Virus record (IMG/VR): IMGVR_UViG_3300030117_000134 | Span: 1-26,468 of that record | DNA from: a virus | Direction: 5' to 3' (one strand) | Length of the DNA: 26,468 bases | Part shown: in pieces, positions 11,497 to 24,906 of the stretch | Position numbering within the stretch: position 1 is the stretch's first letter | Layout of the letters: the number at the start of each line of letters is the position of its first letter | Translations under genes and position numbers: made by a program | Notes under the pieces: generated by a model | Told to the model about the DNA's origin: nothing | What the model saw: only the letters and a program-made list of their open reading frames with translations | Databases searched by the model: none

Positions 11497-11715
11497 TTAT
11501 CTAAATCCCATAAATACGGAGACGACCATAGCTACGACTAAGATCGTGCTTCCCATGATCATCGCTTCTAAGCGCCACATACGTTTGTCTAGGCTGTCTA
11601 ACTTCCCGTGAACCAGTTCTCGAAACATGGCGCATTCTTTCTCGTGCGCTTCGAGTTGCATCTGGGTCTTCAGTGCGGGTTCCATTGCCTGTTCCATTTT
11701 CATACTAGCTTGCAT
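11497..11715 (-). CDS. Small coiled-coil protein with C-terminal membrane helix (XhlA/holin-accessory-like)
   Basis: 72 aa. Residues 1-48 are charged and helical with a heptad-like pattern (VHGKLDSLDKRMWRLEAMI), and residues 51-69 form a single membrane helix (MGSTILVVAMVVSVFMGF) ending in Arg. This layout matches XhlA-type hemolysin/holin-accessory proteins, in which a cytoplasmic coiled coil precedes a C-terminal anchor. A role in lysis timing is therefore possible; a membrane-bound assembly factor is an alternative. It overlaps the end of the 709-aa fibre gene by 11 bases. No strong ribosome-binding site precedes the ATG at 11715; the ATG at 11703 (fifth residue) also lacks one, so translation may depend on coupling. 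No endolysin is seen in the window. Confidence 0.6.
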   Translation of the reverse strand: MQASMKMEQAMEPALKTQMQLEAHEKECAMFRELVHGKLDSLDKRMWRLEAMIMGSTILVVAMVVSVFMGFR

Positions 11716-13834
11716 TTAGGCTACGACCTATTTCGTACAGATTTGTTCCGTCCGAGAGGAATGTGAAAATGTCTTTAGCACTTGGTGTTGTGGTCAAAGT
11801 GGGAGTGTTACCGGCTGCCCACTTGAAGACTGCATTCCACGGGCCAATCGTGCGTGAGCCGGTGCTATCTTGCTTTACCATTAAAACGTACACACCACCA
11901 TCGACTTGATTGGTGGGCGCACCAAAGGCACGACTGTTGCCAACACCAGAGGTAAGTTCGACGCTAGTCACCTGATTGCTAGATGTGTCCCATGCAATTG
12001 TAGATGCGTCAGTTAACGTGGTGGCGTTGAAGTTCTGTGTCTTGGTGAACTCTTGCGCTTTAGCATCGATGATCACATTACCTGTTTCATCGGGCAAGGT
12101 AATCGTACGATCTGCTGTCGGGTCCGTTACGGCAAAGGTGGTTTCGAAGTCGTTGGCCGTAGCGCCTTCAAACACAATGTTAGCGCCGAACGAGCCGCCT
12201 ATCGCAGCTACTTCTGTATCGACGTACGCTTTGATAGACTGTTGGGTTGCAAGTGCCGTTGCACTGTCAGAAGACATGTTGTCTTCGTCGAGAATGTCTG
12301 TGACAGTCGTCGTCGGCATCGCGATGCTGTCAACGTACGCAACGCCATCGATGTATAGGTCTTTCCACTCGGAGCCGGATGCACCCAAGTCGTGTGTGTT
12401 GTCTGCAGACGGAATGATGTTAGAAGCAACGTCAGCGGTGATAGTCACGGTATCTGTTGCAGCGTCACCGAGAACTACGTTACCATTAACGGCTATAGCC
12501 CCTTCAAAGGTTGCTTTCTTATCTTCGTCGATAGTGACCGCTGTGGCAAAAGCGTTCGCACTGGAGCCTGAACTGCCAGCCTTGCTCACTTTGAGAAGTA
12601 TGTTACCACCTGTGCCCGAACCTGTGCCCTGTCCCCCACTGATAACGAGGTTCGTACCGGCTGCATTCGTACCCGTGCCCGGAGTAGGCTGGAGGTCGGC
12701 GTTTTCGAGGCGTCCTACAGCTTTGATAGCTGTCGATGTCATCTCGATAGCGTTGTCAGCATCGATGTCGAGTTGCCCGTCTGCAGATGATCCGATAGAC
12801 AGAGCAGAGTCGCGGAATTGTAGCTCGATGGCGTCGTTGATACGCAGGGCTGTGTCAGCTACGTGAGTGAGAGTTACATCACCATCAGCACCGAGAGCGA
12901 TCACCGTGCCATCGTGCGTTATACTCAAATCTTCAGAGAGTTCTGTTGTCGGCGCAGTTATTTTTGTTTTAGTGTCGGCTTGGATGTCGAGTTGACCGTC
13001 CGCTGTTGATCCGACAGTCAGGGCCGAGTCACGGAACTGCAACTCCATAGCTGCGTTGAGAAGCAGGCCGGTATCAGCAACGTGTGTAAGGTTTACGTCG
13101 TCATCCGCGCCAAAGTTTAAGACGGCAGCATCAGAGCGAAGAAACACATCGTGCGGGGCTATCACACTGTCGTCTTGCAGGGTGAGGGCAGTGGTCAAGG
13201 CTTCTGCATTGCCCGTCTGGAAGACGAGCTTTACATCGTCTCCACCAGTGTCATCGAGGCTGTCCACTACGACAGCGTCAATCTTTGCAACATCTACGCC
13301 CGACTGCTGCGTATCTAAAGTCTCAAAAACAATAGAACCAACGCTGTCCGCCGCAAGCATGTCGGTAGACGTGTTGGTCAGAGTGATGACGGGTGCATCG
13401 TTTTTACGAACATTTAGGTTGACGAGATATGCGTTGTTCCATAGATAAGTAGTAGAACCGAGATCAAAGGACGCGTTCGTCATCGGCTGCAAGTGTGAAC
13501 CTACACCGTCTGCAGAACCATCAGAAGCAGCTACTGTAAGACGATCAATATATGCAATACCGTCGAGATACAAGTCTTTGAACTCGGCAGAAGACGTACC
13601 AAGATCGATACTGCCACTAGGTGTCAGGGCTGTCGTTGTTTGTGTTAACTGTTGAGATGGTCCGAGCTTACTGACGGGTCCGCCATCTCCACTGGTAGAG
13701 CCGTCGTGTGTGTGCCCGGACGACACGTTAAACGCTGTTTCGATAGCGTTAAACTCCCCGTCAAGAGGAGCCGCACTAATGACATTACCATCTGCAATGT
13801 TACCGGCTGTATCGTTTCGTGTGTAACCTGCCAT
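11705..13834 (-). CDS. Tail fibre protein with internal repeats
   Basis: 709 aa, longer than the T7 fibre gp17 (553 aa). The N-terminus (about 1-60) includes SSGHTHDGSTSGDGG; HxH-DG motifs of this kind recur in trimeric fibres, and the region may be the virion attachment end. The shaft contains D-L-G-x2-S-x-E-x-K-D-L-Y-x-D-G units (77-92 and 482-497) and a duplicated block of about 50 residues (241-292 and 314-365). A helical segment follows (TALATQQSIKAYVDTEVAAI, 526-545). The last 117 residues match the C-terminal part of the 164-aa protein at 22267-22761. An AGAAGG-like ribosome-binding site precedes the ATG at 13834. It lies next to the nozzle gene, so it may be the main fibre attached to the tail. 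Adhesin or receptor binding is the likely role; the receptor is unknown. Confidence 0.8.
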   Translation of the reverse strand: MAGYTRNDTAGNIADGNVISAAPLDGEFNAIETAFNVSSGHTHDGSTSGDGGPVSKLGPSQQLTQTTTALTPSGSIDLGTSSAEFKDLYLDGIAYIDRLTVAASDGSADGVGSHLQPMTNASFDLGSTTYLWNNAYLVNLNVRKNDAPVITLTNTSTDMLAADSVGSIVFETLDTQQSGVDVAKIDAVVVDSLDDTGGDDVKLVFQTGNAEALTTALTLQDDSVIAPHDVFLRSDAAVLNFGADDDVNLTHVADTGLLLNAAMELQFRDSALTVGSTADGQLDIQADTKTKITAPTTELSEDLSITHDGTVIALGADGDVTLTHVADTALRINDAIELQFRDSALSIGSSADGQLDIDADNAIEMTSTAIKAVGRLENADLQPTPGTGTNAAGTNLVISGGQGTGSGTGGNILLKVSKAGSSGSSANAFATAVTIDEDKKATFEGAIAVNGNVVLGDAATDTVTITADVASNIIPSADNTHDLGASGSEWKDLYIDGVAYVDSIAMPTTTVTDILDEDNMSSDSATALATQQSIKAYVDTEVAAIGGSFGANIVFEGATANDFETTFAVTDPTADRTITLPDETGNVIIDAKAQEFTKTQNFNATTLTDASTIAWDTSSNQVTSVELTSGVGNSRAFGAPTNQVDGGVYVLMVKQDSTGSRTIGPWNAVFKWAAGNTPTLTTTPSAKDIFTFLSDGTNLYEIGRSLNAS
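12740..13114 (-). repeat. Duplicated ~50-residue shaft block in the 709-aa fibre
   Basis: Residues 241-292 and 314-365 align along their whole length. Shared elements include LTHVADT, ELQFRDSAL and ADGQLDI. The first copy begins FGADDDVNLTHVADTG and the second LGADGDVTLTHVADTA. The spacer holds EDLSITHDGTVIALG. This is an intragenic duplication of a beta-rich fibre unit. Confidence 0.8.
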
Positions 13835-13839
13835 AATGT

Positions 13840-15705
13840 TTACCTTCTTCCGTATTGACCGTATTCAAGAACTGTTGCGTCGAGCGAGTAGGGGGGGTTA
13901 GTGTCGTCGCTGGAAAACTGAAGTGATACGGTAAATCCGGACCCCTGTGCTTGATTATCAAAAATAGATTTTAAAGTTTCTCCACTGAACACTGCTGTAT
14001 TGTTAACACCACCTACAGTAGTGAAGATAATATCGTCATTATCTGCTACAGAGGCTGCTAAATTTGGAGTAAATGCCAGAGTCGTTGTCGCTGTAGACGG
14101 GGTTGCAGATGCATTTCCTGTTATTGTGGGTTTGCTTGACAGCGTGTATGTTTTTTCAAAGTTTGCAGATGAACTGCTGTTTGTTATTACTTGAAACGTG
14201 TCTCCAGAGTCGAGAGTTGGAGATGATGTGCTGTCCAACGACATTAAATCTACTACCATACTAGAAACACCCGACGAGTACCCGCCACCGTTGTTTATTT
14301 TACCGCCGTCTGCAAATTGAACACTGGGTTCTCCAAAAATAAATACGCCGCCTGCGGAGGACGTATTCTCTAAAGAAACAGTGCTTGGCTCAATAACTCC
14401 TGTTTCACTCAAGTCGTACTTGAGATTTAAGGACAAATTGATAGTTCCCTGCGGATCAGTATAAACGGTTGTCTTATACACAGTCTTGCGGAGACGGGGG
14501 TCACTGATGGGGAAGTATGGGGTAGAGAAACTAGCAACGATGTTGTTACCATCGAAACTGTTGCCCGACTCCATTTGATATATGTAGCCATCGTTGTGTC
14601 CAAAAAGAACAGTTTCTGTCGTCCCACTATACGTTGAGTCTGCAGTAAACGCTTTTATGCCTGTAGTTTCTGACCAATTTATTGCGATACCTTGCTGATC
14701 TTGAATTTGTGTTCCGATAATTCCTTTTGATGTTCCTGCCGTGCTTGATCCCGTAAACCCAAAGATTCTATACTGAGACTTTTCACGAATAACTACGGAT
14801 GCAAAAGAACTATTTTGAGACGCTAGTTGCACCATCTGTTTTTGAATGGGCTTAGATATAGATGCTAGTTCAAAATCTTGGTTCCGCTCTGTCCCAGCAA
14901 CTGTCCGTAAGCCGTCTGGTCCTAAGAAGATAACATCGCCTGATATTTCTTGTGCCGTATCGCTTACAACGCAACCTATGTTGTCCGTGATGGGTTGCAT
15001 TTGAAAGTCTGCAATGCTGTTACCCACGATGCGTGATATGCGATCTTCGGAGAAAACAATAAGCTGTTCACGAAAAACAATTAAGTCAGTTATGGTACTG
15101 CCTACGTTGATTATACCACCGCCTGATGCTGCTGTAAAGTCATCATCTTCAAATGGCGCAGAAAACACAAGGTTTTCGCCCTTTGCAGCAAAGATATGTT
15201 CCTTAAATTCTACTGCGTGGGTGGCACCCTGTAGGTCTGACGGTCCAGAAAGCTGCGACAGATCAGAAGCAGTAACTCCTGCAAGTATCAGGGGGTAGCC
15301 TATACCATCGACGATAAAAAGTTTGTCGTTGCCGTCGAAATTGTATTTACAAAAACGTACACGCGACGTATTCGCACCGAGAGTTAGGGATGTTGAAAGG
15401 TCTGTCCACGCCCCTGTTCCGCTTGTGCCTGCATAGAGTTTTGGATCGCCGGATGTTTGATCACGTGCCGTAATTGCGCTATCTCGAAAGAACGTAACTC
15501 CTAAAATATTGTTTTGCCCCGTAACTATATTCGAGTTGAACTTCGAAAACCCTTCGATACGACGATAGCCGCCCTCTGTAGATACTTCGAAGTTAGTAAG
15601 GTTACGCGCAGAACCCGGAGCGGCAGCACCGTGCTGCAACGGACTAAGGTTGCTGATAAGACCCCCACGAAACTCGATGGGGTACGTCTGCCAACGATCC
15701 GGCAT
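13840..15705 (-). CDS. Tail tubular protein B / tail nozzle (T7 gp12-like)
   Basis: A 621-aa, mainly beta protein. The N-terminus (FRGGLISNLSPLQHGAAAPGSARNLTNFEV, about 13-42, then GGYRRIEGFSKF) is a pattern I associate with T7 gp12 and P22 gp10-type nozzle/DNA-stabilisation proteins, which open with a line about sampled points and an average trend. The following SGTGAWTDLS, KLFIVDGIGYPLIL and HIFAAKGENLVFSAPFEDDDF segments look like beta-propeller blades seen in this family. It is shorter than T7 gp12 (794 aa). The gene follows the gp11-like adaptor with one base between, exactly the T7 order. The protein forms the distal tube through which DNA leaves. Residues 355-400 carry a Trp/Tyr-rich beta stretch and the end is Ser/Thr-rich. 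Confidence 0.8.
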   Translation of the reverse strand: MPDRWQTYPIEFRGGLISNLSPLQHGAAAPGSARNLTNFEVSTEGGYRRIEGFSKFNSNIVTGQNNILGVTFFRDSAITARDQTSGDPKLYAGTSGTGAWTDLSTSLTLGANTSRVRFCKYNFDGNDKLFIVDGIGYPLILAGVTASDLSQLSGPSDLQGATHAVEFKEHIFAAKGENLVFSAPFEDDDFTAASGGGIINVGSTITDLIVFREQLIVFSEDRISRIVGNSIADFQMQPITDNIGCVVSDTAQEISGDVIFLGPDGLRTVAGTERNQDFELASISKPIQKQMVQLASQNSSFASVVIREKSQYRIFGFTGSSTAGTSKGIIGTQIQDQQGIAINWSETTGIKAFTADSTYSGTTETVLFGHNDGYIYQMESGNSFDGNNIVASFSTPYFPISDPRLRKTVYKTTVYTDPQGTINLSLNLKYDLSETGVIEPSTVSLENTSSAGGVFIFGEPSVQFADGGKINNGGGYSSGVSSMVVDLMSLDSTSSPTLDSGDTFQVITNSSSSANFEKTYTLSSKPTITGNASATPSTATTTLAFTPNLAASVADNDDIIFTTVGGVNNTAVFSGETLKSIFDNQAQGSGFTVSLQFSSDDTNPPYSLDATVLEYGQYGRR

Positions 15706-15706
15706 G

Positions 15707-16387
15707 TTAGGTTGCCCTTACGTAATAATTTTCGTTTACAAGTATTTTACGCATGTTTTTCATGCCTTCGTCGAATTTACTTTTTGATATCGTTGCCATT
15801 TCCATATTGTCACGGAACATGTAGCAGTAGTACATGGCACCATCCACAATCACATACTTGTAGGGTTCTGGTATCATAGGCACGTCATCGTGGAGGGATA
15901 AATTCACGGGATGTAGGAAATATTCGTACTCGACTGTGTACGCTTTGTCAGGCATGGGTATGATACCGAAGTAGCCATCTTGTGATCTGAATACAAGTTC
16001 AGGAACGCCCCCCTTCGAAACGTCTGTCTCGTCTTCTTGATCTATGTAACGATCTACATATTCCACATAAGTAATTTTACGCAATCTACGCGCTCTGCCT
16101 ACGTCGAGGCTTGTGTCTCGCTTCACTCGGAATGTATCAAAGTCTACGTACTTAGCTTCGTCCGCAAACGAGTAACGAGTCTCTCCAGCAACCAGTGTAA
16201 TTTCATCCGAGTTGTGATTGTAAGGCCAGTACAAGTAATACTGATTGATGTCACGGATAGAAGAATTTATCGCGTCTTTGATAGTTCCGTAAAAACCTTT
16301 TGCGGTAGAAAAATTAGTAGATGTGAGTTCTGTCTCGTTGAGGCGACGAGCAACGCTGTTGACAAGTTCGAGGTAATTGTATGCCAT
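15707..16387 (-). CDS. Tail tubular protein A / adaptor (T7 gp11-like)
   Basis: 226 aa, close to T7 gp11 (196 aa). The protein starts with a helical segment (YLELVNSVARRLNETEL) and a second helix (AINSSIRDINQYYLYWPYNHN) that match the helical bundle of portal-binding adaptors. It continues with a beta part (ITLVAGETRYSFADEAKYVDFDTFRV) and a C-terminal helix (YKYVIVDGAMYYCYMFRDN, then KSKFDEGMKNMRKILV). Proteins of this family dock on the portal and join it to the nozzle. The neighbouring gp12-like gene supports the call. The start ATG overlaps the previous stop by one base. Confidence 0.8.
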   Translation of the reverse strand: MAYNYLELVNSVARRLNETELTSTNFSTAKGFYGTIKDAINSSIRDINQYYLYWPYNHNSDEITLVAGETRYSFADEAKYVDFDTFRVKRDTSLDVGRARRLRKITYVEYVDRYIDQEDETDVSKGGVPELVFRSQDGYFGIIPMPDKAYTVEYEYFLHPVNLSLHDDVPMIPEPYKYVIVDGAMYYCYMFRDNMEMATISKSKFDEGMKNMRKILVNENYYVRAT

Positions 16388-16728
16388 TAGCTACGCTCCC
16401 TTACTCGCAAGTTAATCACTCGTTTTGTAACGATAGCAGCAGTAGTTTTAGCTGACGTGCTTGTTGTAATCTCGCAGATTAACTTGTTGTCTATATTTGC
16501 CGTGCCGCCTGACAGCACAATGGTGGCTGTCGTGTCAGTGTTAGCAATACGATTTACAGTCATGCCGTTGATCGTATCCGAAGCAGATAAGTTACTCGAT
16601 TCTGTGCCATCAGTCTGTATAAAGCGCCACGCAACAGACGCGATAGTCAGCGTATCTAAATACCGGGACCAGTCTACAGTATAATCTAGCTGCTCATCTG
16701 GGTCTTTGTCGGGCCATCGTAATGACAT
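16387..16728 (-). CDS. Small Ig-like beta virion protein (113 aa)
   Basis: It opens SLRWPDKDPDEQLDYTVDW, a W-x-D-K-D-P-D-E-x2-D-Y-x-x-D-W motif I recognise from small phage structural proteins encoded near head-tail genes. The rest looks like one Ig-type beta sandwich (VAWRFIQTDG, TDTTATIVLSGG, NKLICEITTS) ending in basic VINLRVRERS. No enzyme motif is present. In other phages this family sits beside tail or fibre genes and is annotated as a virion or tail protein of unknown role. Here it lies between the adaptor (one-base overlap) and the 842-aa repeat protein. Confidence 0.65.
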   Translation of the reverse strand: MSLRWPDKDPDEQLDYTVDWSRYLDTLTIASVAWRFIQTDGTESSNLSASDTINGMTVNRIANTDTTATIVLSGGTANIDNKLICEITTSTSAKTTAAIVTKRVINLRVRERS

Positions 16729-16729
16729 T

Positions 16730-19258
16730 TTATGCTACCTTTGCTAATCTTTGTGCGTCTTGAGGCACAGATACGATTCGGGGCTTTTCTTCAGGCACTA
16801 GTACAATTCGTTGTTTATCTTGAACGATGTAAAGAATGTGTTCTGTCGGTTCTGTAACATGAACTACACGTTGTTTTTCTGCAGCTACGAATACGACGTG
16901 CTTGCGTTCGTAAAGCGTTGCGTCGAAGAAGAAGGACAGGAATCCGGTTGCGACAGTGGTTGCCTGTCCGGATACGGATGCGGTTCCTGTCCTACGACGA
17001 GTTGCCAGCCCTGTGATTGAGGCCGTGCCAATTACAGAACTTGTTACGACTTGGATACGGATACCCGTTGCCGTAGCTGTTGCTGCACCCGATACAGATG
17101 CGCTTTCATTACGCACCCGCACTGCTGCGCTAGACTGGGAAGCGTCCCCGCTGACACTGCTTGCTCCGTCCCGGACGCGAATTGCGGCTGCTGATACGGT
17201 TGCTGCACCAGCAACGGAGGAGCTTGTATTGCGGACACGTATCGAAGATGCAGAGACAGACGCCGCACCTGAAACAGATGCTGATTCGTCCTTGACTCGG
17301 ACTGCTGATCCAGCAACCGTACCCGCACCTGATACAGAGCTTGCACCCTCGCGTACTCGAATTGCCGCTGCAGAAACTGTAGCCGCACCTGACACAGAAG
17401 AGGCTGCAACGGCTCGTAGTACCGCAGAGGATGACGCTGTTGCCTGACCAGATACAGAGCTAGTAACAGGAGCGAGGAGCGTAGCCGCCGCCGATACAGT
17501 CGCTACTCCGGATACAGAGGCTGCGCCCGTTTGAACGCGAACACCACTCGATGATGCCGTCGCGTCACCGGATACGGACGACGCGCCCTTTGCCCTAAGT
17601 AACGCAGTTCCTGATGCCGTCGCCGTACCGGAGATGGTGGAGTCACCCGGACGAAGACCCGTTGCTGTAGCACTCGACGCGCCTGATGCGGAGATAGAGC
17701 TACTTGCAATAAGACGAGCGGTGGCTGTCGATGCTCCCGTACCCGCACCAGATACGGATGCACTGTTTGTAGCTATTAGTGCGGCGCTTGCGCTAACTGT
17801 GCCTGCGCCAGATGTAGACCCTGCTGCCGCTTTGAACGATGTTACCGATACGTCTGCTACGGTAGCAGTGCCGGATACGGATGCTTGACCCGCTGCCCGA
17901 AGAGTTGTTGCACCACTGACTGTAGCCGCACCAGATATAGAGGCAGTGACCTCGTGTTCAACCTTAACGTCTGATGCGTCAGCGAGATCGCCAACCTGCC
18001 CTGTCCCGGCAACCCCCGTGAGGGTTATACTCGCTGCACCGCTAACCGAGCCGCCAAAGTATCGAAGACCGAAGAGGTTGGATTCCCTGTTGGCGCTGTC
18101 ATCTTCGACAATGGCACCGACAGGCACTTCCGAAACGAAGCGCATACCAGCGGTGAGCGCGTAGCTCTTGGCGTTACCAGTTAGATTGCTGTCCGTGGTT
18201 GTGCTTGAGATAAGCTGGAACTTAGTTGGGAAGTCCGACCCTGTGTTGCTTGTCGCAAGCTGTATCGTGTCTACGAGTGTGCCGCTGCTGTTAAATACCT
18301 TGATGTTGCGGCCATTCGTACCGGGCGCACCTACAAAGTTAACAAACTCTGCTGCTTCGATGAGGCGAAACTCATTGGCAAAACAACCTTCGGGTACAAA
18401 ACTGGTTTTTTCACCGCCGTCAGAGTCTGCAAAACTGAATGCCGCAGAGGCTTTAGCCGTTTGATACCTATTACTTGGCCCTGTAAAGTCTGTACCCGCT
18501 GCAAAATTAGTGTTGATTGTGCTTATCGTGGAACTGTTACTGGTTCCATCACTAGCAAATCTTGTAAAGGTTTGTGCCGTTCCACCATACCCGTCCACCA
18601 AAACCGCTGTCGCACTAGACGCTGCAAAACCGTAAAGGAAGTCGGTGCTTGCAGGGAACACTGGCCGGTTGTCGCCAGACAAGCTAGTAGCGCGTGTCTT
18701 AAAGACAATAATCGGCAGGTCTGAGAGTACGGTGTATTCAGGGTCAGAAGTATCGTCAGCGTAGGATTGCGTTGTGGTCGCAGTGCTACTAACACTCAAG
18801 GTTGTAGTTGATACACCGTCCTTGAATATCTCCACAGATGCTGTGCCATACAAGGCGCGTATCTGTAATACAAAACCCGTCCTTGTGTTGCGGAAGCCAA
18901 ACGAGGTTCCCGCCCAAGAGGTCGGCACACCAACAGTTTGGTTGTCCCCACTTTGAAGCGTAATCGGCTTATTTGCCGATATAATCTTGTTTTCGTAGTT
19001 CGAATGGGAGACTGCAAGTGTGCCACCTGCCGAACTTATTGTGCCAAGAGATGACCCGTCAGCCGAAACTGTTGTGCTAGCCTCAAAGGCCATAACAGTT
19101 ATGTTGGGATCATCGGTGTCTGTAGGTACGAAGTATTCTGCGTGACGCGCACCGCCTAAGTCTTCACTGCCACGAGCCTCAACTCCCGTCAACGTCACCT
19201 GTGCATTTACAGGAGACTCTGCAAAGGTGAGAAACGAAAAGGGACTGTGGCCGAACAT
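16730..19258 (-). CDS. Large repeat-containing tail/fibre protein (842 aa)
   Basis: Three parts are visible. Residues 1-440 are a Ser/Thr/Gly-rich beta region without a clear family, including KPITLQSGDNQTVGVPTSWAG and a segment around 280-385 that looks like a jelly-roll. Residues 441-772 are 17 tandem copies of a unit of about 20 residues, consensus V-S-G-x-A-T-V-S-A-x-A-x-R-x. Residues 783-842 are six roughly 10-residue repeats of the E-K-Q-R-V-V-x-V-x type (EKQRVVHV, DKQRIVLV, EKPRIVSV). Arrays like the last occur at the C-terminus of phage tail-associated proteins. A fibre or virion decoration protein is likely; the regular Ala/Ser/Val units suggest a beta-helix or solenoid shaft. It precedes the Ig-like and gp11-like genes. 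The function of the N-terminal part is unknown. Confidence 0.7.
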   Translation of the reverse strand: MFGHSPFSFLTFAESPVNAQVTLTGVEARGSEDLGGARHAEYFVPTDTDDPNITVMAFEASTTVSADGSSLGTISSAGGTLAVSHSNYENKIISANKPITLQSGDNQTVGVPTSWAGTSFGFRNTRTGFVLQIRALYGTASVEIFKDGVSTTTLSVSSTATTTQSYADDTSDPEYTVLSDLPIIVFKTRATSLSGDNRPVFPASTDFLYGFAASSATAVLVDGYGGTAQTFTRFASDGTSNSSTISTINTNFAAGTDFTGPSNRYQTAKASAAFSFADSDGGEKTSFVPEGCFANEFRLIEAAEFVNFVGAPGTNGRNIKVFNSSGTLVDTIQLATSNTGSDFPTKFQLISSTTTDSNLTGNAKSYALTAGMRFVSEVPVGAIVEDDSANRESNLFGLRYFGGSVSGAASITLTGVAGTGQVGDLADASDVKVEHEVTASISGAATVSGATTLRAAGQASVSGTATVADVSVTSFKAAAGSTSGAGTVSASAALIATNSASVSGAGTGASTATARLIASSSISASGASSATATGLRPGDSTISGTATASGTALLRAKGASSVSGDATASSSGVRVQTGAASVSGVATVSAAATLLAPVTSSVSGQATASSSAVLRAVAASSVSGAATVSAAAIRVREGASSVSGAGTVAGSAVRVKDESASVSGAASVSASSIRVRNTSSSVAGAATVSAAAIRVRDGASSVSGDASQSSAAVRVRNESASVSGAATATATGIRIQVVTSSVIGTASITGLATRRRTGTASVSGQATTVATGFLSFFFDATLYERKHVVFVAAEKQRVVHVTEPTEHILYIVQDKQRIVLVPEEKPRIVSVPQDAQRLAKVA
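16733..16912 (-). repeat. C-terminal ~10-residue R/V repeats
   Basis: The last 60 residues of the 842-aa protein have a period of about 10, with the pattern (E/D)-K-Q-R-(V/I)-V-x-V-x: HVVFVAAEKQRVVHV, HILYIVQDKQRIVLV, EEKPRIVSVPQDAQRL. Alternation of hydrophobic and charged residues suggests beta strands, possibly an interaction or trimerisation tail. Confidence 0.7.
16943..17938 (-). repeat. Tandem array of 17 units of 20 residues (60 bases)
   Basis: Units run from residue 441 to 772 of the 842-aa protein; nearly all are exactly 20 residues, with one of 21 and the last partial. Each begins (V/I)-S-G followed by small residues (for example VSGAATVSAAAIRVREGASS). In the downstream half position 14-16 usually carries R-V-(R/K), giving one basic spot per turn; upstream units lack it. 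The DNA copies have diverged, so they are old or under codon-level change. Confidence 0.85.
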
Positions 19259-19262
19259 CTAC

Positions 19263-19814
19263 TTAGTCCAGCGGATCGGGCCAGTCGTTAATCGGTGCGT
19301 TGCCTGTTATGTTTCCTTTTGAATCTTTAGGCGGTTCAAACAACGCAAGGAAGGCTGCGTGATCTGCAGCATTGTCGATAGCAGTTTCGATTGTTCCGCT
19401 TTTTGTGCGGACTGCAGCGCGGTATGTAGTCACAGCAGAGGGAATTGCTGCATTTGTTTCCGATTTACGTACAACATACCAGTCAGTGTCTTGTAGTAAA
19501 TTACCCGCAATTTTCTTCGTTTCATTTTTCCACGTGGTTTTTAGGCCACGTGCAACAAGCTGATTACCGTCCTTGTCTAAGATCGGATCACCTTTTTCGT
19601 CAACCTGCTTTACATCATCAATAGCTTTCGGTGTTTTTGCGTCCCAGTAAAACCGACTATCGTATGGTGCCGGATCATCTTCCCACACCAGACCAACAGC
19701 TTTCTTTTCTGCATCCGTAGTCAGGAATAGCCAGTTGCCCGGATACTGATTTCCGTCATTATCAGACCAAGCCCTCCCTGCTCGAATGATTTTACTTTGA
19801 TATTTCCATGCCAT
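19263..19814 (-). CDS. Tail-assembly-chaperone-like protein (Phage_tail_APC type)
   Basis: 183 aa. Residues 92-160 contain LLQDTDWYVVRKSETNAAIP then VTTYRAAVRTKSG, matching the L-x2-T-D-W-x(n)-P-x3-Y-R-x-A-(L/V)-R pattern of small phage proteins annotated as tail assembly chaperones and often encoded right after fibre genes. The first 60 residues (AWKYQSKIIRAGRAWSDNDG, NWLFLTTDAEKK, SRFYWD) look like a second beta domain. It directly follows the 813-aa fibre gene by 14 bases, so it may help fold or attach that fibre, as Tfa proteins do. The start is ATG at 19814 and an AGGAGAC-type ribosome-binding site lies just upstream. Confidence 0.6.
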   Translation of the reverse strand: MAWKYQSKIIRAGRAWSDNDGNQYPGNWLFLTTDAEKKAVGLVWEDDPAPYDSRFYWDAKTPKAIDDVKQVDEKGDPILDKDGNQLVARGLKTTWKNETKKIAGNLLQDTDWYVVRKSETNAAIPSAVTTYRAAVRTKSGTIETAIDNAADHAAFLALFEPPKDSKGNITGNAPINDWPDPLD

Positions 19815-19828
19815 CAGTGTGTCTCCTG

Positions 19829-22270
19829 TTATCTTGCATTGGCATACTTGAATGGCTGTTCAGCGAAGGCGAGGTAGAGGAACGTGCTACCGTCTCCATT
19901 TTGTTCGCCGCTCGAACCTCTTAACTTAAATCCGTTAGATAATAAATCTATGTTGAAAGTGCTACTTGTGTCCTCTTGGACATTGTTATCTGCCTCAAGT
20001 CTAGCGTTAATTACGTTGAAGGGGTTGGGTCTTTTGTTATCAAAGAGCTTCCAAGAACCTGATGTACTGGTGCGTTTCAACAGTAACCATGCTGGCCTGA
20101 AACCTGTATAAACAAACTGACCATCAGCATTGCCATTGCCAATGTAAGTACCAACCTTGCTGTAACCTTCAACGTCGTGAAAACAATACGCTACATATGT
20201 TTTAGTGCTTTGATTTAAATCAGCGAAAGTTCCTAAAGAAAACACAGTTGATGTAGTCGCCGTATCATTAAATGCCCCTACTGCATCTGTTGCCTCAACG
20301 GATGAATTTAATAGCAAGTAATCAGTCTCGTTTACCAGCCCGAAACCGGCTGATCCCGCTCTAGCATAGACGAGCCAATTGCCATCTGCACTTGTAGCTA
20401 CTCTTGATTTTATAAAAATCATTGTGGGAGCCGAAGTTAAACCGTGACCAACAGTGTCGCCATTTGTACCTGTGCCTGTGTATGTAACAATACTAAACCC
20501 ACTTTCAGTGCTTGCCGATACGCTGCTTGTAATGTCTCCGTCACTATTACTAACAGCCGTGCCGCCAGCTTTCCAGTTCCACGCAACGTAGGTTGCACCA
20601 CTGTTTCCGCCCCAGACCCCAGAACCAGAACCTGATCCTATTGTAAATCCGTCAGAGTCAAAACTTTGAAGACCCTGTGCATCAGTTGACTCCGCATTAG
20701 TTAGGTCTGGAAATAAAGTTTTGGTTACTCCTCGAATCACATCAGAGGTTGCGTGACTGTCAGCGGCAGAACGCTTCTTAGCCCAGACCCAGTCTGGTTG
20801 AAATCCTACTCCTGTGATTGATAGAGTTGTTGCACCAGTTCCCGTATAAGTCACCGTGTTGAAGTACTCGTCTGGCGTTTCGCCCTTATTCGGATCAATG
20901 CCGGGATCAGGCAATTCAGCAGCAGAAAAAGCGGTATACCCCGCAGGTGGAGTTGTTCCCCAATCACTAGGATCATCTTTTAAAGTAATGATAGCGGGAG
21001 TGCCAGCATGTATACCACCTGCACCTACCGTCAGCAGAGTATTCGCCGTGAAAGTAAAGTGTGGGTTAGTACCGTTTGCAATGTCAGGCGTACCATTTAC
21101 AGTTTGCACCGTGCCGTTTAAAGCAAAGAAACCTTTGCCAGCATCAAAATCTATATAAACACCAACACGATCATTTACGCTGCGGAATTTTGTAGGCGTG
21201 CCCTGATTAACCCCGCTGTCGTTAATAGAGGCCGCAGCATCGCTTGATCCACCCGCGTTATAACTACCTTCAAAATTAGACGAGTCACCACTTCCAATAT
21301 CTGAAAAATCTTTCCCCTCGCTAACAACAAAAATAGTTTGGCTATCGCCGCTGTTACCATCATAAGTTCTGTCTAGGTTAAATTCACAATAAGCCTTACC
21401 CTCGTTGCGGAATATTGTCAGTGGCACTCCTGAAAAACCACTGCTACCAGATGTGAAGCTAATTGTTTTGTTGCCGTCAGATAGAGTGGTGCTGTGTTTT
21501 AGGTCTTTAAGTAGGTAATTAAAAGTTGGCTTGTTATCCGTAGGGGCGTCCGGCATTTGATCTGTGGTAGCAAAATTGTTTGCTGTAAAATCGTGACCGT
21601 TCCCACTAGTGTCGTCACCAAAAGAAGAACTATCTTGAAAAGCAAGTCTAAACCCGTTGGTGCCGTAGCTGCCGCTAAATTCTTTAGGCACCCAAATACC
21701 GTTTTTTGTTACTCCGAATGAAGTAGGGTCGTGGCTAGTTCCGTCAACAAAATTCATTTCTGCCAGATAGCCATCGAAATGTTGACCTGTTCCCCCAAAT
21801 CTTCCTACGTTATGTGCTACTGTGTGGTTAAAATAACCGTTTGAGCTGGCTCTTGATTCGGTCTGTAACTCTTGTTGAACACCGTTAACATAAATTTCAG
21901 AGCTTGACCCACTTCGTTGAACAAGGATGTGATACCAAGCAGACGTGTCTCTAAACGAAGCAGATGTTTTAAGATGATTTTGAGCGGAACCACCAACGAA
22001 ATATATGTATCTAATGCAATCATCACTATCAAATCTTATATATTCAAAATCATTTGCCCCAGAATACGCACTAAACATGTTAGCTGAAGAATAGCTAAGA
22101 TTGCCACGCTTTACCCAACAACTCCATGTCCATATTGTTCTGCTTCCTGTGCTTGACGGTGTGCGGTTTAAGTACGGACTATCATCATCGTTAAAGCGCA
22201 ACGACTGCTCTATACTAAAATCATAAAACCCGGTGCTACCGCCACCACCGATACCAAGAATACCACTCAT
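19829..22270 (-). CDS. Tail fibre with LamG-like and SPRY-like domains (813 aa)
   Basis: Residues 25-185 resemble a concanavalin-type LamG domain: WTWSCWVKRG, then SAWYHILVQRSG, EIYVNGVQQ and FDGYLAEMNFVDG, the usual order of strands in these sugar-binding-like folds. Residues 290-425 resemble SPRY/B30.2, with GKAYCEFNLDR and DRVGVYIDFDAGKGFFALNG. Residues 470-806 contain three related modules of about 100 residues, each starting with a T-Y-x-G-x-G element and ending near T-Y-V-A-(W/Y) or F-L-Y-L-A-F. This layout recurs in marine phage fibre proteins. It likely recognises a surface polysaccharide, though the ligand is unknown. The start overlaps the previous stop by four bases (ATGA). A very Gly-rich start (GILGIGGGGSTG) may be a flexible linker. 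Confidence 0.75.
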   Translation of the reverse strand: MSGILGIGGGGSTGFYDFSIEQSLRFNDDDSPYLNRTPSSTGSRTIWTWSCWVKRGNLSYSSANMFSAYSGANDFEYIRFDSDDCIRYIYFVGGSAQNHLKTSASFRDTSAWYHILVQRSGSSSEIYVNGVQQELQTESRASSNGYFNHTVAHNVGRFGGTGQHFDGYLAEMNFVDGTSHDPTSFGVTKNGIWVPKEFSGSYGTNGFRLAFQDSSSFGDDTSGNGHDFTANNFATTDQMPDAPTDNKPTFNYLLKDLKHSTTLSDGNKTISFTSGSSGFSGVPLTIFRNEGKAYCEFNLDRTYDGNSGDSQTIFVVSEGKDFSDIGSGDSSNFEGSYNAGGSSDAAASINDSGVNQGTPTKFRSVNDRVGVYIDFDAGKGFFALNGTVQTVNGTPDIANGTNPHFTFTANTLLTVGAGGIHAGTPAIITLKDDPSDWGTTPPAGYTAFSAAELPDPGIDPNKGETPDEYFNTVTYTGTGATTLSITGVGFQPDWVWAKKRSAADSHATSDVIRGVTKTLFPDLTNAESTDAQGLQSFDSDGFTIGSGSGSGVWGGNSGATYVAWNWKAGGTAVSNSDGDITSSVSASTESGFSIVTYTGTGTNGDTVGHGLTSAPTMIFIKSRVATSADGNWLVYARAGSAGFGLVNETDYLLLNSSVEATDAVGAFNDTATTSTVFSLGTFADLNQSTKTYVAYCFHDVEGYSKVGTYIGNGNADGQFVYTGFRPAWLLLKRTSTSGSWKLFDNKRPNPFNVINARLEADNNVQEDTSSTFNIDLLSNGFKLRGSSGEQNGDGSTFLYLAFAEQPFKYANAR
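19853..20863 (-). repeat. Three related ~100-residue modules in the 813-aa fibre
   Basis: Modules begin near residues 470 (FNTVTYTGTGATTLSITGVG), 592 (FSIVTYTGTGTNGDTVGHGL) and 703 (YSKVGTYIGNGNADGQFVYTG). Each continues with an aromatic element: QPDWVWAKKR, APTMIFIKSR and RPAWLLLKRT. They are diverged copies of one domain. Confidence 0.75.
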
Positions 22271-22761
22271 TTTGTGTCCAAAGCCCTTCCGATTTCGTGC
22301 AGGTTTGTACCGTCGGATACAAAGACAAGTTGATCGCGCGCACTGGCAGTCGTCGTAAGCGTCGGAGCCGTGCCACCAACAAACTTAAACACAGAGTTGA
22401 ACGTGGCTGTGCGCGAACCTGTGCTATCCTGTTTAATTATCAAAACGTATGCTGCGCCGTCAACCTGATTTGTTGGCGCACCGAAAGTACGATTGCCGCC
22501 TAGCGTAACACTCGTCACCTGATTAGCAGAAGTATCCCACGCGATTGTGGAAGCGTCTGTAAGTGTCGTTGCATTGAAGTTCTGGGTAGCTGTAAACTCT
22601 TGCGCCGTCTTCAGGTTCGCAACAGCGAAACCGCCTGCCTGCGAATTATCATGGACAATCAAAGTATCCTTGTCGGTATCAACCGTGACCTCGCCTACCG
22701 CGCCGGTAAAGGAGCCATGTTGAGAGGTCGTCCCCCGTCTAAGCTGTACTTGCTGTGCCAT
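22267..22761 (-). CDS. Fibre-type protein with Mtd-N-like start and shared C-terminal module (164 aa)
   Basis: Residues 3-50 (QVQLRRGTTSQHGSFTGAVG, then EVTVDTDKDTLIVHDN) match the pattern of the N-terminal domain of Bordetella-phage major tropism determinant proteins, in which it forms the trimeric stalk. Residues 53-164 match the last 117 residues of the 709-aa fibre (NFNATTLTDASTIAWDTS and FGAPTNQVDG, for example). The C-terminal module, ending FVSDGTNLHEIGRALD, is widespread in marine phage fibre proteins. No adenine-specific variable region or reverse transcriptase is visible, so there is no sign of a diversity-generating element. Start and stop overlap neighbours by one and four bases. 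Confidence 0.7.
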   Translation of the reverse strand: MAQQVQLRRGTTSQHGSFTGAVGEVTVDTDKDTLIVHDNSQAGGFAVANLKTAQEFTATQNFNATTLTDASTIAWDTSANQVTSVTLGGNRTFGAPTNQVDGAAYVLIIKQDSTGSRTATFNSVFKFVGGTAPTLTTTASARDQLVFVSDGTNLHEIGRALDTK

Positions 22762-24077
22762 TAAGCTATTGCTCCATAATCTTGTGAACTAGCGGCTGAC
22801 CCTGTAATCAAGCCAAAATCTAAATCGCCAAGACCTAAATCTGATACAACCTCTGTTGCTGATCTGCCTTCTATCGAAGTTCCGTTTACGCGCAAGAAGT
22901 CATCGTCTGCAACGCCGGATGTAAATACTGGGACGTTACCGTTGCTGATGCCTGTAGCTGCGACAGCGGCTGTGCCTAGTCCGATATCAGATCGAACCTC
23001 TGACGCGCTTCGGCTTTCTAGTCCACTTGCAGTAAATCTAGCAAACTCGTCATCCGCTACAGAAGAACTGTCAATCTTGACTGCGTTGGTATTGCTGATG
23101 CCAAAAGTGAGACTAGCTTGACCACCAATGTCAGATAGCACCTCACTGGTTGACCGACTTTCTAGGCCATTGGCTGTGAAACGTGCGTACTCATCATCTG
23201 CTACGGAAGAACTGTCAATCTTAACTGCATTGGTGTTTGATATGCCAAAGGTTAAAGACGCCTGACCGCCAATATCCGACAGCACCTCTGATGTTGATCG
23301 ACTCTCCAAACCGTTTGCAGTAAATCGTGCGTATTCGTCATCAGCGACCGAACTGCTGTCTATCTTAACCGCGTTTGTATTGCTGATGCCAAAGGTAAGA
23401 CTAGCTTGACCACCGATATCAGACAAAACTTCGGATGCAGAACGTCCCTCTATATCTGTTCCGTTTACCCGTAAAAAATCGTCGTCTACAACGCCAGATG
23501 TAAATTTCGGTATATTTGTGTTAGATATGCCCGTGTCTAACACCGCTGCTGTACCAAGTCCCAAACTAGTTCTAGCTGTAGACCCAGACTCCGCTACAAA
23601 GTTTGCTCCGTCACCTACAATAAAATTACCGTTGGTAACTGCAAGGCCAGCTACGTCCTGTAGCTGTGCGTCGAGTCTGGCGTTAGGTACTGTGCCACTA
23701 GAAAGGTTGCTTGCGTTGAGTGCGGTGAGTGCGCTGCCATTAGCCGCTATGATATTCCCAGAGTCATCAAGAAACACCGCCTTCTCGGCTGGCTGTGTTA
23801 TAAAAACATCTCTAGTGCCAACGCCCCAGTCTACTTTGCCGCCGCTATTACTGGACTCTAAAACAGTATCACGAGCTAAAGTTGTGCCAGAACTTGCAAA
23901 TGTTCCCTTGCCAACTTCAAAGTTAGTGCCATCAGTGATGCAGTAATAGGTTTCGTCACCATTGCTTAGAACGCTCGTAAATGTTTGAAAACCAGTAGCG
24001 GCACCGCCAAGAGTAATTGTACCCTCACCAGTTGTAGTGGTAGTTTCTTTTACACGATCTTTTAGGACAAAGGCCAT
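22761..24077 (-). CDS. Repeat-containing tail fibre protein (438 aa)
   Basis: The N-terminus (about 1-105; LKDRVKETTTTTGEGTITLG, YYCITDGTNFEVGKGTF, VFITQPAEKAVFLDDSGN) is a conserved virion-attachment-like region found in many phage fibre proteins. Residues 167-407 are five units of about 48 residues; units 2-4 share SEVLSDIGGQASLTFGISNT and are nearly identical. The end (about 408-438) is short and Gly/Ala/Ser-rich. The fibre unit probably forms a beta-rich trimer shaft. It lies among other fibre-type genes with one-base overlaps on both sides. Confidence 0.7.
   Translation of the reverse strand: MAFVLKDRVKETTTTTGEGTITLGGAATGFQTFTSVLSNGDETYYCITDGTNFEVGKGTFASSGTTLARDTVLESSNSGGKVDWGVGTRDVFITQPAEKAVFLDDSGNIIAANGSALTALNASNLSSGTVPNARLDAQLQDVAGLAVTNGNFIVGDGANFVAESGSTARTSLGLGTAAVLDTGISNTNIPKFTSGVVDDDFLRVNGTDIEGRSASEVLSDIGGQASLTFGISNTNAVKIDSSSVADDEYARFTANGLESRSTSEVLSDIGGQASLTFGISNTNAVKIDSSSVADDEYARFTANGLESRSTSEVLSDIGGQASLTFGISNTNAVKIDSSSVADDEFARFTASGLESRSASEVRSDIGLGTAAVAATGISNGNVPVFTSGVADDDFLRVNGTSIEGRSATEVVSDLGLGDLDFGLITGSAASSQDYGAIA
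23004..23435 (-). repeat. Three 48-residue (144-base) tandem repeats
   Basis: Residues 215-262 and 263-310 of the 438-aa fibre are identical in amino acids and 311-358 differ at only a few positions (EF for EY, TAS for TAN, SA for ST). The DNA copies nevertheless differ at many third positions and even switch Ser codon families. Diverged related units flank the array on both sides (22857-23003 and 23436-23579). Confidence 0.9.
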
Positions 24078-24514
24078 TACGCAATCCTAACTATCGCATT
24101 AGAGGCGTCTGCCGTCGGAAACGTAATCACAAAGTCACCGCTCGTAGATGTTTGGGTGCTGCCAAAGTCAAACACAGCAATCGCCTTGTTGCTTTGTGAC
24201 GAGTTGTAAATGATACACCCATCCGCAGACACACTCGCATTGGAGAAAGTCACATCCGTAAAGTCAACGTGTGCTGTGGTTCCGTCCGTTCCTATCGTTG
24301 CACCTGACAGAGTAGCACCACCTGTTGTGTATCCTGTCCCTGATGCTTCGTCAGAATTACCCGTTACGTTAGAATAATTTGTTGTTGCCGCACCATACGT
24401 ACCAGATGGACTGGCTTTTATAAGAGCTAACTTCAACGTGTTTGTGTCGAGATCATGCGTACCTCCAAGCAGTTCACTCTTGAACGAGGTACACATTGCG
24501 GTGGTAATCGACAT
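24077..24514 (-). CDS. Small beta-rich virion candidate (145 aa)
   Basis: This matches a small phage protein family I know from many tailed phages, with the hallmarks FKSELLGGTHDLDTNTLKLA, G-T-G-Y-T-x-G-G-A-T-L, HVDFTDVTFSNASVSADGC, and TFPTADASNAIVRIA at the end. Its function is undetermined; it is usually found among virion or tail genes. Ser, Thr and Gly dominate and there is no signal peptide. The gene overlaps the 438-aa fibre gene by one base and follows the 128-aa gene by five bases. Confidence 0.65.
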   Translation of the reverse strand: MSITTAMCTSFKSELLGGTHDLDTNTLKLALIKASPSGTYGAATTNYSNVTGNSDEASGTGYTTGGATLSGATIGTDGTTAHVDFTDVTFSNASVSADGCIIYNSSQSNKAIAVFDFGSTQTSTSGDFVITFPTADASNAIVRIA

Positions 24515-24519
24515 AGCTA

Positions 24520-24906
24520 TTACGCCTCTGTGATCGTGATTGCACCTGATGCAAAACGAAGTGTGTCTCCGTCTGCGATAGTTTTGGAAGCCGTCAGGGC
24601 ACCGTAGTACAGTAAGTTCCCAGCAGTGGAAGCATCGTGGATTCCGAAGTGTGTTATTGTACCAAAAGCACCGCCACTAGCTGTAAACTCTTCTACCGAG
24701 TTACTTGCGGCTGAACCACTACTAGCTGCAGCAAATGTTATAGCTTGACGCGAATATCCGTTTCCAGATATTTCGTTACCATCATCTTCACCCGGACTTG
24801 ACGTATGCAAAGAAAGATACACAGCAGAGGGCGCAGAAGTGGAAGACGTTCCTAAGAAGTGGTCAAGAACCTTTAGCTCCAAGTAATTGGATTTTGCGTC
24901 TGACAT
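24520..24906 (-). CDS. Small phage virion protein of the L-x-L-H-T-S-x-P-G type (128 aa)
   Basis: The signature is VYLSLHTSSPGEDDGNEISG followed by GYSRQAITF and later ITHFGIHDASTAGNLLYYG. I know it from small structural proteins of tailed phages annotated as tail fibre-like or minor tail proteins. The start (NYLELKVLDHFLG) is a helix and the rest is beta. It is like the 145-aa neighbour in size and composition, and the two may be distant relatives. No enzyme motif. Followed after five bases by the 145-aa gene. Confidence 0.6.
   Translation of the reverse strand: MSDAKSNYLELKVLDHFLGTSSTSAPSAVYLSLHTSSPGEDDGNEISGNGYSRQAITFAAASSGSAASNSVEEFTASGGAFGTITHFGIHDASTAGNLLYYGALTASKTIADGDTLRFASGAITITEA

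Follow-up and report, generated by a model that had tools for sequence, protein, structure and literature searches.

Our subject is the bank of fibre-type genes that lies upstream of the tail adaptor gene in a 26,468-nt stretch of viral DNA (positions 1 to 26,468 of IMG/VR virus record IMGVR_UViG_3300030117_000134; the whole stretch is called the window here). We propose, with a probability of about 0.68, that four consecutive minus-strand genes of this bank, encoding a fibre shaft (F438), a connector (F164), a lectin-type tip (F813) and a chaperone-like protein (chap183), form a removable cassette within a fixed collar frame, and that the cassette delivers a portable receptor-binding tip that is possibly used on two fibre types. 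The proposal builds on computed features of the window and its relatives, namely the order and domain make-up of the genes, their co-occurrence, their spread to unrelated phages and, in near relatives, coupling with F709, a second fibre encoded after the nozzle gene. In kind this is ordinary, that is, a variable fibre locus with a portable fibre-chaperone module; the specific twist is that the connector domain is duplicated and that the tip is paired with one or the other of two classes of fibre.

Removal of the cassette as a whole is evident when near relatives are compared. The best 80 of 208 adaptor relatives in viral contigs include 28 with a complete bank; F164, F813 and chap183 are all present in four of the 28 (L083, L085, L114 and L119) and all absent from the other 24. 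These complete banks measure 998-8550 bp, while the adaptors of the same 28 relatives are 62-96% identical. At the DNA level, the window is 91% identical to contigs G001/G002 from 24520 to about 26460 and 85-87% identical over about 14.5-16.8 kb, and F813 and F438 align with them patchily, only in islands. Other banks contain unrelated genes, with C1q, G8 and Peptidase_S74 matches above cut-off and YadA-head and F5/F8-type matches below it. Judged from its sequence, the bank can be described as a fixed frame (gp80-like protein, repeat protein and gp77-like protein) plus a removable cassette, and it looks like the variable locus by which an HMO-2011-type podophage recognises its host. An earlier note on this DNA had read the bank as a set of adhesins and had suggested looking for high variation in it, and such variation was seen in the synteny comparison of relatives. 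As a separate observation, the same bank position is filled by alternative genes (G8, S74, C1q or F5/F8-type) in L092, L102, L091 and L098.

The shaft, F438 (438 aa; 22761..24077, minus strand), has an N-terminal stretch of ~110 aa that recurs in relatives, among them CRP-603 gp58, a 'putative tail fiber' (53% over 111 aa), and 48-aa repeats that form a 144-bp tandem array of 2.6 copies at 23045-23425. A Pfam 'ASC' match in F438 (4e-8; 33.2 bits against a cut-off of 23.6) consists of short stretches on the repeats and was taken as spurious. The connector, F164 (164 aa; 22267..22761, minus strand), is divided into an Mtd_N anchor (residues 1-~50) and a C-terminal beta domain predicted to be XD1-like (residues ~61-164), referred to below as the end domain. 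The anchor is matched by Pfam Mtd_N at 7e-14 (51.9 bits against a cut-off of 26.3) and by the PDB entry of Mtd at 1.6e-11; Pfam gave no lectin match for F164, and the protein ends after the XD1-like domain. An AlphaFold2 model gave the end domain a pLDDT of 87-95 (ten-residue blocks over 61-160) and the Mtd_N half a poor 50-64. The modelled end domain resembles Solidus gp83 (Z 8.4), residues 79-180 of CBA120 TSP4 (Z 7.3), T4 gp10 (6.4) and T4 gp9 (6.2), with ranks 1-9 of the VIA list at Z 6.2-8.4 and ranks 10 and 11 dropping to 5.0 and 3.7, although a Z under 8 may reflect a common arrangement only, which is a caveat on the XD1 fold match; Foldseek gave an E of 3.1e-4 to 7rej. The matched TSP4 stretch is XD1, according to the linkers given in the available part of its description (PMC8825819).

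The wider occurrence of the end domain was followed in the best 80 of 92 F164-relative loci, a sample that was fetched with F164 patterns, is therefore biased to F164 and includes near-copies. The domain was present in 77 of these 80 loci, behind Mtd_N in 27, behind the F709 anchor in 3 and behind other or cut N-termini in 47. F813 lies within 3.5 kb after the end domain in 62 of the 68 non-truncated loci. In the six exceptions the fibre has the F709 anchor (L252 and L273) or a different one (L264-L267); the chaperone-like gene is present as well on the contigs of L264-L267 and L273, and the contig of L252 is too short to decide.

The tip, F813 (813 aa; 19829..22270, minus strand), matches phrog_19943 at 1.6e-174 and DUF7483 at 4.3e-114. 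It is made up of a pentraxin/LamG-like domain (16-246), a SPRY domain (246-452) and DUF7483 (466-806), the two halves of which are alike (probability 98.1). In its model (pLDDT 84.2, pTM 0.87) the pentraxin/LamG-like domain reached a best Z of 20.9 and the SPRY domain a Z of 18.8. The LamG-SPRY-DUF7483 make-up was found in 79 of 86 scored F813 relatives (the contig of L013/L083 being counted twice), with an extra DUF7483 in five. Given these lectin-type folds and the variability of the gene, F813 is predicted to be a lectin-like receptor-binding tip. A role as a head or tail decoration, or an action on surface glycans other than receptor binding, seems quite improbable: phrog_19943 is filed under 'head and packaging' and a literature search found no mention of DUF7483, whereas F813 has a gene resembling fibre-assembly chaperones as its partner, comes after fibre-type genes in a number of phages and has a homologue inside a hypervariable region. 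This homologue, at 13377-15718 in Skadi-1, overlies the hypervariable region that the accessible part of the Skadi report places at 13,646-15,713 (PMC10504331). A common N-terminal plug peptide on F813 was considered and set aside, as the N-termini vary with the carrier type, a pattern that is suggestive only.

Directly after F813 lies chap183 (183 aa; 19263..19814, minus strand), which resembles tail-fibre assembly chaperones (phrog_4912, tail fiber assembly, 1.4e-8); against Phage_tail_APC it scored 13.9 bits, below the cut-off of 26.6. Its homologues in CRP-811 and CRP-406 (L181:5734-6276 and L184:3939-4481) are annotated as 'N-acetylmuramidase/lysin', which looks like a misannotation.

Tip and chaperone travel well beyond the near relatives. 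Homologues were found in 72 named phage records for F813 and in nine for chap183. The two genes are adjacent in MEP301, C72C1, CRP-811, CRP-406 and HTVC202P, the order in the last being connector, chaperone, tip, and are separated by one gene in ctXG6705; none of these six phages appears in the 28-record adaptor match list. In four of the six (33-75% identity) the F164 end domain closes the product of the gene before the tip/chaperone pair; blastp gave no end-domain match at this place in CRP-406 and ctXG6705. Tape measure genes are present in CRP-811, CRP-406 and HTVC202P, so that the set is not confined to one tail type; the fibre-chaperone module recurs in unrelated podo- and siphoviruses. 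Across F813 loci in viral contigs (at least 80), the chaperone-like gene lies within 1.5 kb downstream of F813 in 58 of the 68 loci with room. A different podovirus-like type, represented by contig L240/L266, has the order p145-F438-F164-F813-chaperone-repeat protein and then a second end-domain fibre; contigs with such a second fibre (L264-L267) have the chaperone in four of four, and the cassette is accordingly accompanied by a second fibre of this kind in another phage type too. The N-terminal half before the end domain varies between types of phage, but the end domain, the tip and the chaperone return; we take this to mean that the cassette is able to pass from one tail to an unrelated one.

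The second fibre of the window, F709 (709 aa; 11705..13834, minus strand), has a conserved N-terminal stretch of ~60 aa and a C-terminal domain (about 593-709) that is a paralogue of the F164 end domain. Between the two copies in the window, 16 of 19 differences fall at third codon positions (93 aligned columns), a bias suggesting that both are kept under selection; diversification of the end domain in F164 and F709 by a diversity-generating retroelement was rejected, the differences being mainly third-position and not A-directed. A complete F709-type open reading frame (ORF) occurs in 40 of the 80 near relatives, and in 28 of these the presence of the chaperone-like gene beside the repeat gene is decidable. 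The end domain is found on F709 in six of the six relatives with the chaperone and in none of the 22 without it, with no mixed case; four more carriers of the end domain on F709 (L086, L089, L095 and L120) are cut off at the contig edge. On a tree of adaptor and nozzle, the cassette changed four times with IQ-TREE and three times with FastTree, and four of four independent pairs agree. The two sites are separated by the adaptor and nozzle genes, and transfer of a single block therefore does not suffice to explain the coupling. More distantly, L004, L214 and L273 (adaptors 52%) combine the chaperone in the bank with the end domain on F709, which brings the overall coupling of collar cassette and F709 end domain to 31 of 32 decidable cases (near relatives 28/28, more distant ones 3/4), L201 and L252 being cut off.

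The place of the tip gene links it to both fibres. In L022, L040, L063, L071 and L072 (the last two near-copies) the genes run adaptor, nozzle, F709-anchored fibre, F813 and chaperone, and in L040, L071 and L072 this fibre has a diverged end domain (hmmsearch 2.9e-11 to 1.6e-12). An F438-anchored shaft precedes the tip in L004, L005 and L038, and L005 has an end-domain protein of 127 aa between the two. One tip family therefore pairs with either fibre class across more distant relatives. It can be speculated that the same F813 is mounted on the collar fibre via F164 and on the nozzle fibre via F709, through the duplicated end domain, and that one imported tip would re-target both fibres. We hold this idea tentatively and somewhat below even odds, which were raised slightly because the tip lies directly behind an F709-anchored fibre in relatives, and were held down by L038.

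Several observations weigh against the two-fibre use of the tip and against the end domain as its mount. L038 (adaptor 49%) combines tip and chaperone with an F438-anchored shaft, yet its 745-aa F709-type fibre is without the end domain, so the collar cassette and the F709 end domain are not strictly coupled. The adaptor and nozzle tree has 29 rows, of which only 24 are different, and with four pairs the minimum p of a sign test is 0.125. The end domain lies within 1.5 kb upstream of F813 in only 34 of the 69 loci with room. The F709-type fibre before the tip in L022 and L063, and the shaft before the tip in L004, show no end domain, suggesting that the tip needs none or that an unrecognised form is present. 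Moreover, the XD1 fold binds glycans in CpaA and StcE. In the part of the TSP4 description available, XD1 is a domain whose function is not fully understood, perhaps a spacer, and partner binding is assigned to XD2 and XD3 (PMC8825819); for this reason we weakened our term for the F164 end domain from 'socket' to 'connector-type domain'.

One possible explanation, which we also consider to fall short of an even chance, is that the end domain common to F164 and F709 serves as a trimerising cap or spacer of a general kind, that the coupling arose by co-transfer and that F709 is without F813 here. The fibres without an end domain before the tip, the exception of L038, the mere four independent contrasts and the spacer suggestion for XD1 all fit such a role, as does the wide occurrence of the domain among proteins of viruses (BFVD: 724 matches at E<=10 and 267 at E<=0.001). 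Yet the adaptor and nozzle, situated between F709 and the bank, do not track the cassette on the tree, the five relatives named above have an F709-anchored fibre gene immediately ahead of the tip gene, the second end-domain fibre again coexists with the chaperone in another phage type, and the third-position bias suggests selection on both copies. As an observation in its own right, the fibres before the tip that are without an F164-type end domain (L022:2951-4438, L063:2445-4751 and L184:7906-8574) end in similar ...VSVS.ALT motifs, which perhaps represent a second end-domain family.

We infer an assembly in which the tip would bind the end domain, recognise a receptor and perhaps serve two fibres. 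The collar would be a gp77 ring with gp80-type beads and the R842 repeat protein as a tether, as suggested by Ralstonia phage GP4. Judging from gene order, co-occurrence and domain kinds, fibre A would consist of the F438 shaft, the F164 connector and the F813 tip, folded with chap183. The Mtd_N half of F164 would plug into the phage-specific part and display the XD1-like beta domain at its other end, F813 would be carried at or near this domain, and chap183 would help F813 to fold. Fibre B would be F709 on the nozzle, closed by the same connector domain and perhaps bearing the same F813 tip.

The earlier note had taken the rich set of fibre-type genes to suggest several adhesins, which is probably too high a count: F164, F813 and the chaperone are present or absent as one unit in the 28 relatives, and F709 shares the end domain. 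The corresponding alternative, in which F813, the insert of R842, F709 and gp80 bind different receptors, at different steps or on different hosts, appears unlikely to us. The distinct anchors (the F438 N-terminus, the F709 N-terminus and the R842 ends) do indicate more than one fibre type, and the F709-type fibre of L038 has an unrelated end. The joint travel of F164, F813 and chaperone speaks against independence, however, as does the F709 end that follows them in near relatives, and no Pfam receptor-binding domain was found above cut-off in F709, F438 or F164. A candidate for a separate adhesin may be sought in R842 (842 aa; 16730..19258, minus strand), the repeat protein or 'rope', which has a short N-terminal motif, 20-aa repeats, a conserved C-terminal end of ~86 aa and an insert at ~31-407. 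Its counterparts likewise keep a short motif at the N-terminus and a conserved C-terminal end, and their middle differs greatly in length; they measure 131-655 aa in complete relatives where recognised, against 842 aa in the window, and that of L095 is at least 737 aa and open at the contig edge. The inserted domain (31-407; window 18039-19168) recurs in 37 loci at 47-91% identity, and the inserted piece in the repeat protein of L159 is a LamG domain (2.7e-11), both of which favour independent adhesins. It was also noted that the insert occurs, up to 91% identical, in repeat proteins of other phages with quite different ends; it seems to be mobile by itself, given this high identity within otherwise different proteins. 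Searches of R842 against PDB and against named phages gave nothing meaningful. By position and build, as a repeat chain with conserved ends beside a collar gene, R842 appears to be primarily a tether fastened to the collar, and its inserted domain could be an adhesin.

The remaining members of the frame flank the cassette and R842 on the same strand. At the upstream edge lies gp80_128 (24520..24906, minus strand), similar to GP4 fiber I (gp80; Pfam Gp80 PF23140 1e-41; PDB 8jou chain a 1.1e-12), and next to it p145 (24077..24514, minus strand), a small virion-type protein (phrog_644 1.6e-21) with 77.9% to CRP-345 and 76.6% to CRP-603. In more distant relatives p145 takes the place of gp80: the 28 complete banks have p145 in 15, gp80 in 11, neither in 2 and both in none, weak p145 matches (26-27% over 65%) in L083 and L085 being left out of the count. 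The window, unlike all 28, has the two together (24077-24906). A relationship of p145 and gp80 as paralogues was rejected (hhalign probability 1%). Downstream of R842 follow gp77_113 (16387..16728, minus strand), a collar protein similar to the GP4 fiber-tail adaptor gp77 (Pfam Gp77 PF23148 4.4e-15; 56.4 bits against a cut-off of 27), the 226-aa tail adaptor (15707..16387, minus strand; Pfam SU10_adaptor 2.6e-23; CRP-345 51%) and the 621-aa nozzle-position tail protein (13840..15705, minus strand; phrog_5107 5.7e-44, no Pfam match). An insert in the latter (residues about 460-560) is present in some relatives (621 aa, as in L096 and L102) and absent elsewhere (517 aa, as in L083 and L092), and no link with the cassette was seen. 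The nozzle-position protein of HMO-2011, gp44 (L163:14726-16234), is annotated as 'amidase', as is phrog_5107; the label is doubtful.

All the ORFs that the earlier note had listed were found, tightly packed on the minus strand, with the 438-, 164- and 813-aa genes, the 183-aa chaperone-like gene and the 842-aa repeat protein ahead of the adaptor/nozzle pair and the 709-aa fibre after it. It had placed the bank at 19829-24077, where genes of the bank do lie, but the bank starts earlier and p145 and gp80_128 (to 24906) belong to it. From the upstream end the order is p143, p86, p113, the gp80-like protein of 128 aa, p145, F438, F164, F813, chap183, R842, the gp77-like protein of 113 aa, the adaptor, the nozzle-position protein, F709, p72 and p453, beyond which come three proteins of smaller or middle size and a 1671-aa one. 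Adjacent genes from p113 through F709 overlap or are separated by 1-14 bases. The bank ORFs can be taken as genes rather than chance ORFs on account of the profile matches of F813, F164, gp77_113 and the 226-aa adaptor. Positions 1-25000 of the window had no near-identical match in named phages, nor had the 1671-aa protein any match there. Adjoining the latter is a 103-aa ORF at 1552-1863 with a 33-bp tandem repeat (MMYGG motif), the DNA of which is 88-90% similar in G001 and G004. Promoter-like sites (13 in the window against 17.5 in shuffles) and terminator-like sites (16 against 14.2) gave no signal.

The adaptor is closest, among the 28 named records that it matched, to CRP-345 (51%), CRP-603 (48%) and HMO-2011 (47%); the nozzle-position protein has 38-47% to these three and gp77 has 37-39% to the two CRP phages. 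The related contig G004 has portal, terminase, coat, DNA polymerase and ribonucleotide reductase genes in common with HMO-2011. On the basis of these relatives, the window can be assigned to an HMO-2011-type podophage. HMO-2011-type DNA polymerase, terminase, portal and coat genes were not found within the 26.5-kb window, and the P22 coat family was matched in none of 12 related contigs, PHROGs having named a major head protein in G004. The group is described, in the available part of its report, as one of subfamily level with a wide ocean distribution (PMC9038755). The adaptor and nozzle genes had been called a T7-like gp11/gp12 pair; this label fits their position only, Pfam giving SU10_adaptor for the first and no match for the second, and the named phage proteins related to them are tail proteins of HMO-2011-type phages. 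By comparison with T7 it had seemed odd that fibre genes precede the adaptor, but CRP-345 and CRP-603 have collar-type genes there and CRP-603 a fibre gene as well, so the arrangement is not unusual in the group. T7 is the wrong yardstick, since HMO-2011-type phages can have collar and fibre genes upstream of the adaptor.

The exchange of receptor-binding genes between unrelated viruses makes those of abundant marine phages difficult to trace. Connector end domain, LamG/SPRY/DUF7483 tip and chaperone, taken as a defined set, offer a handle for finding the tip gene in phages of Pelagibacter, Roseobacter and Methylophilales. Should one tip serve two fibres, import of a single gene would switch both, and host switching would become easier to explain and to test.

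Several known systems share parts of this design. HMO-2011, CRP-345 and CRP-603 have the same order of adaptor, nozzle and F709-type fibre as the window. CRP-345 and CRP-603 also have p145- and gp77-like genes between coat and adaptor, where CRP-603 has in addition a fibre gene with the F438 N-terminus; HMO-2011 has a single gene at this place, and the banks of the two CRP phages are shorter than that of the window. The examined parts of these three phages gave no F164 or chaperone match (none is among the nine chap183 records), and behind the fibre on the nozzle side of CRP-603 lies a weak match to F813 (28% over 339 aa). Bordetella phage BPP-1 Mtd has the Mtd_N half in common with F164, in which the C-type lectin half is missing; in BPP-1 a template repeat and a reverse transcriptase lie beside mtd, and neither is among the annotated matches of the window from general profile scans. 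GP4 resembles the window in its gp80- and gp77-like proteins and in a fibre gene beside the nozzle. Reportedly (work attributed to Zheng, 2023, in JMB), GP4 has three fibre types and gp80 dimers on a rope, and its architecture is said to comprise a 15-fold collar, beads on a rope and a tulip-like fibre II. Later papers, as far as their available parts go, mention for GP4 at second hand a fibril joining the adhesin to the collar (PMC13243795) and a 15:12 mismatch (PMC10925440). The Skadi/HTVC010P-type hypervariable region has a lectin-domain gene whose position coincides with the F813 homologue; this is another phage type, and in the accessible part of its description no connector-and-second-fibre pattern was found (PMC10504331). 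The Alteromonas phage A5/V22 module, to judge from the part of its report available, is a fibre with its cognate chaperone that distantly related phages share, as here, and the window differs from it in its LamG/SPRY/DUF7483 tip and in a separate small connector with an exchanged anchor half (PMC10579305).

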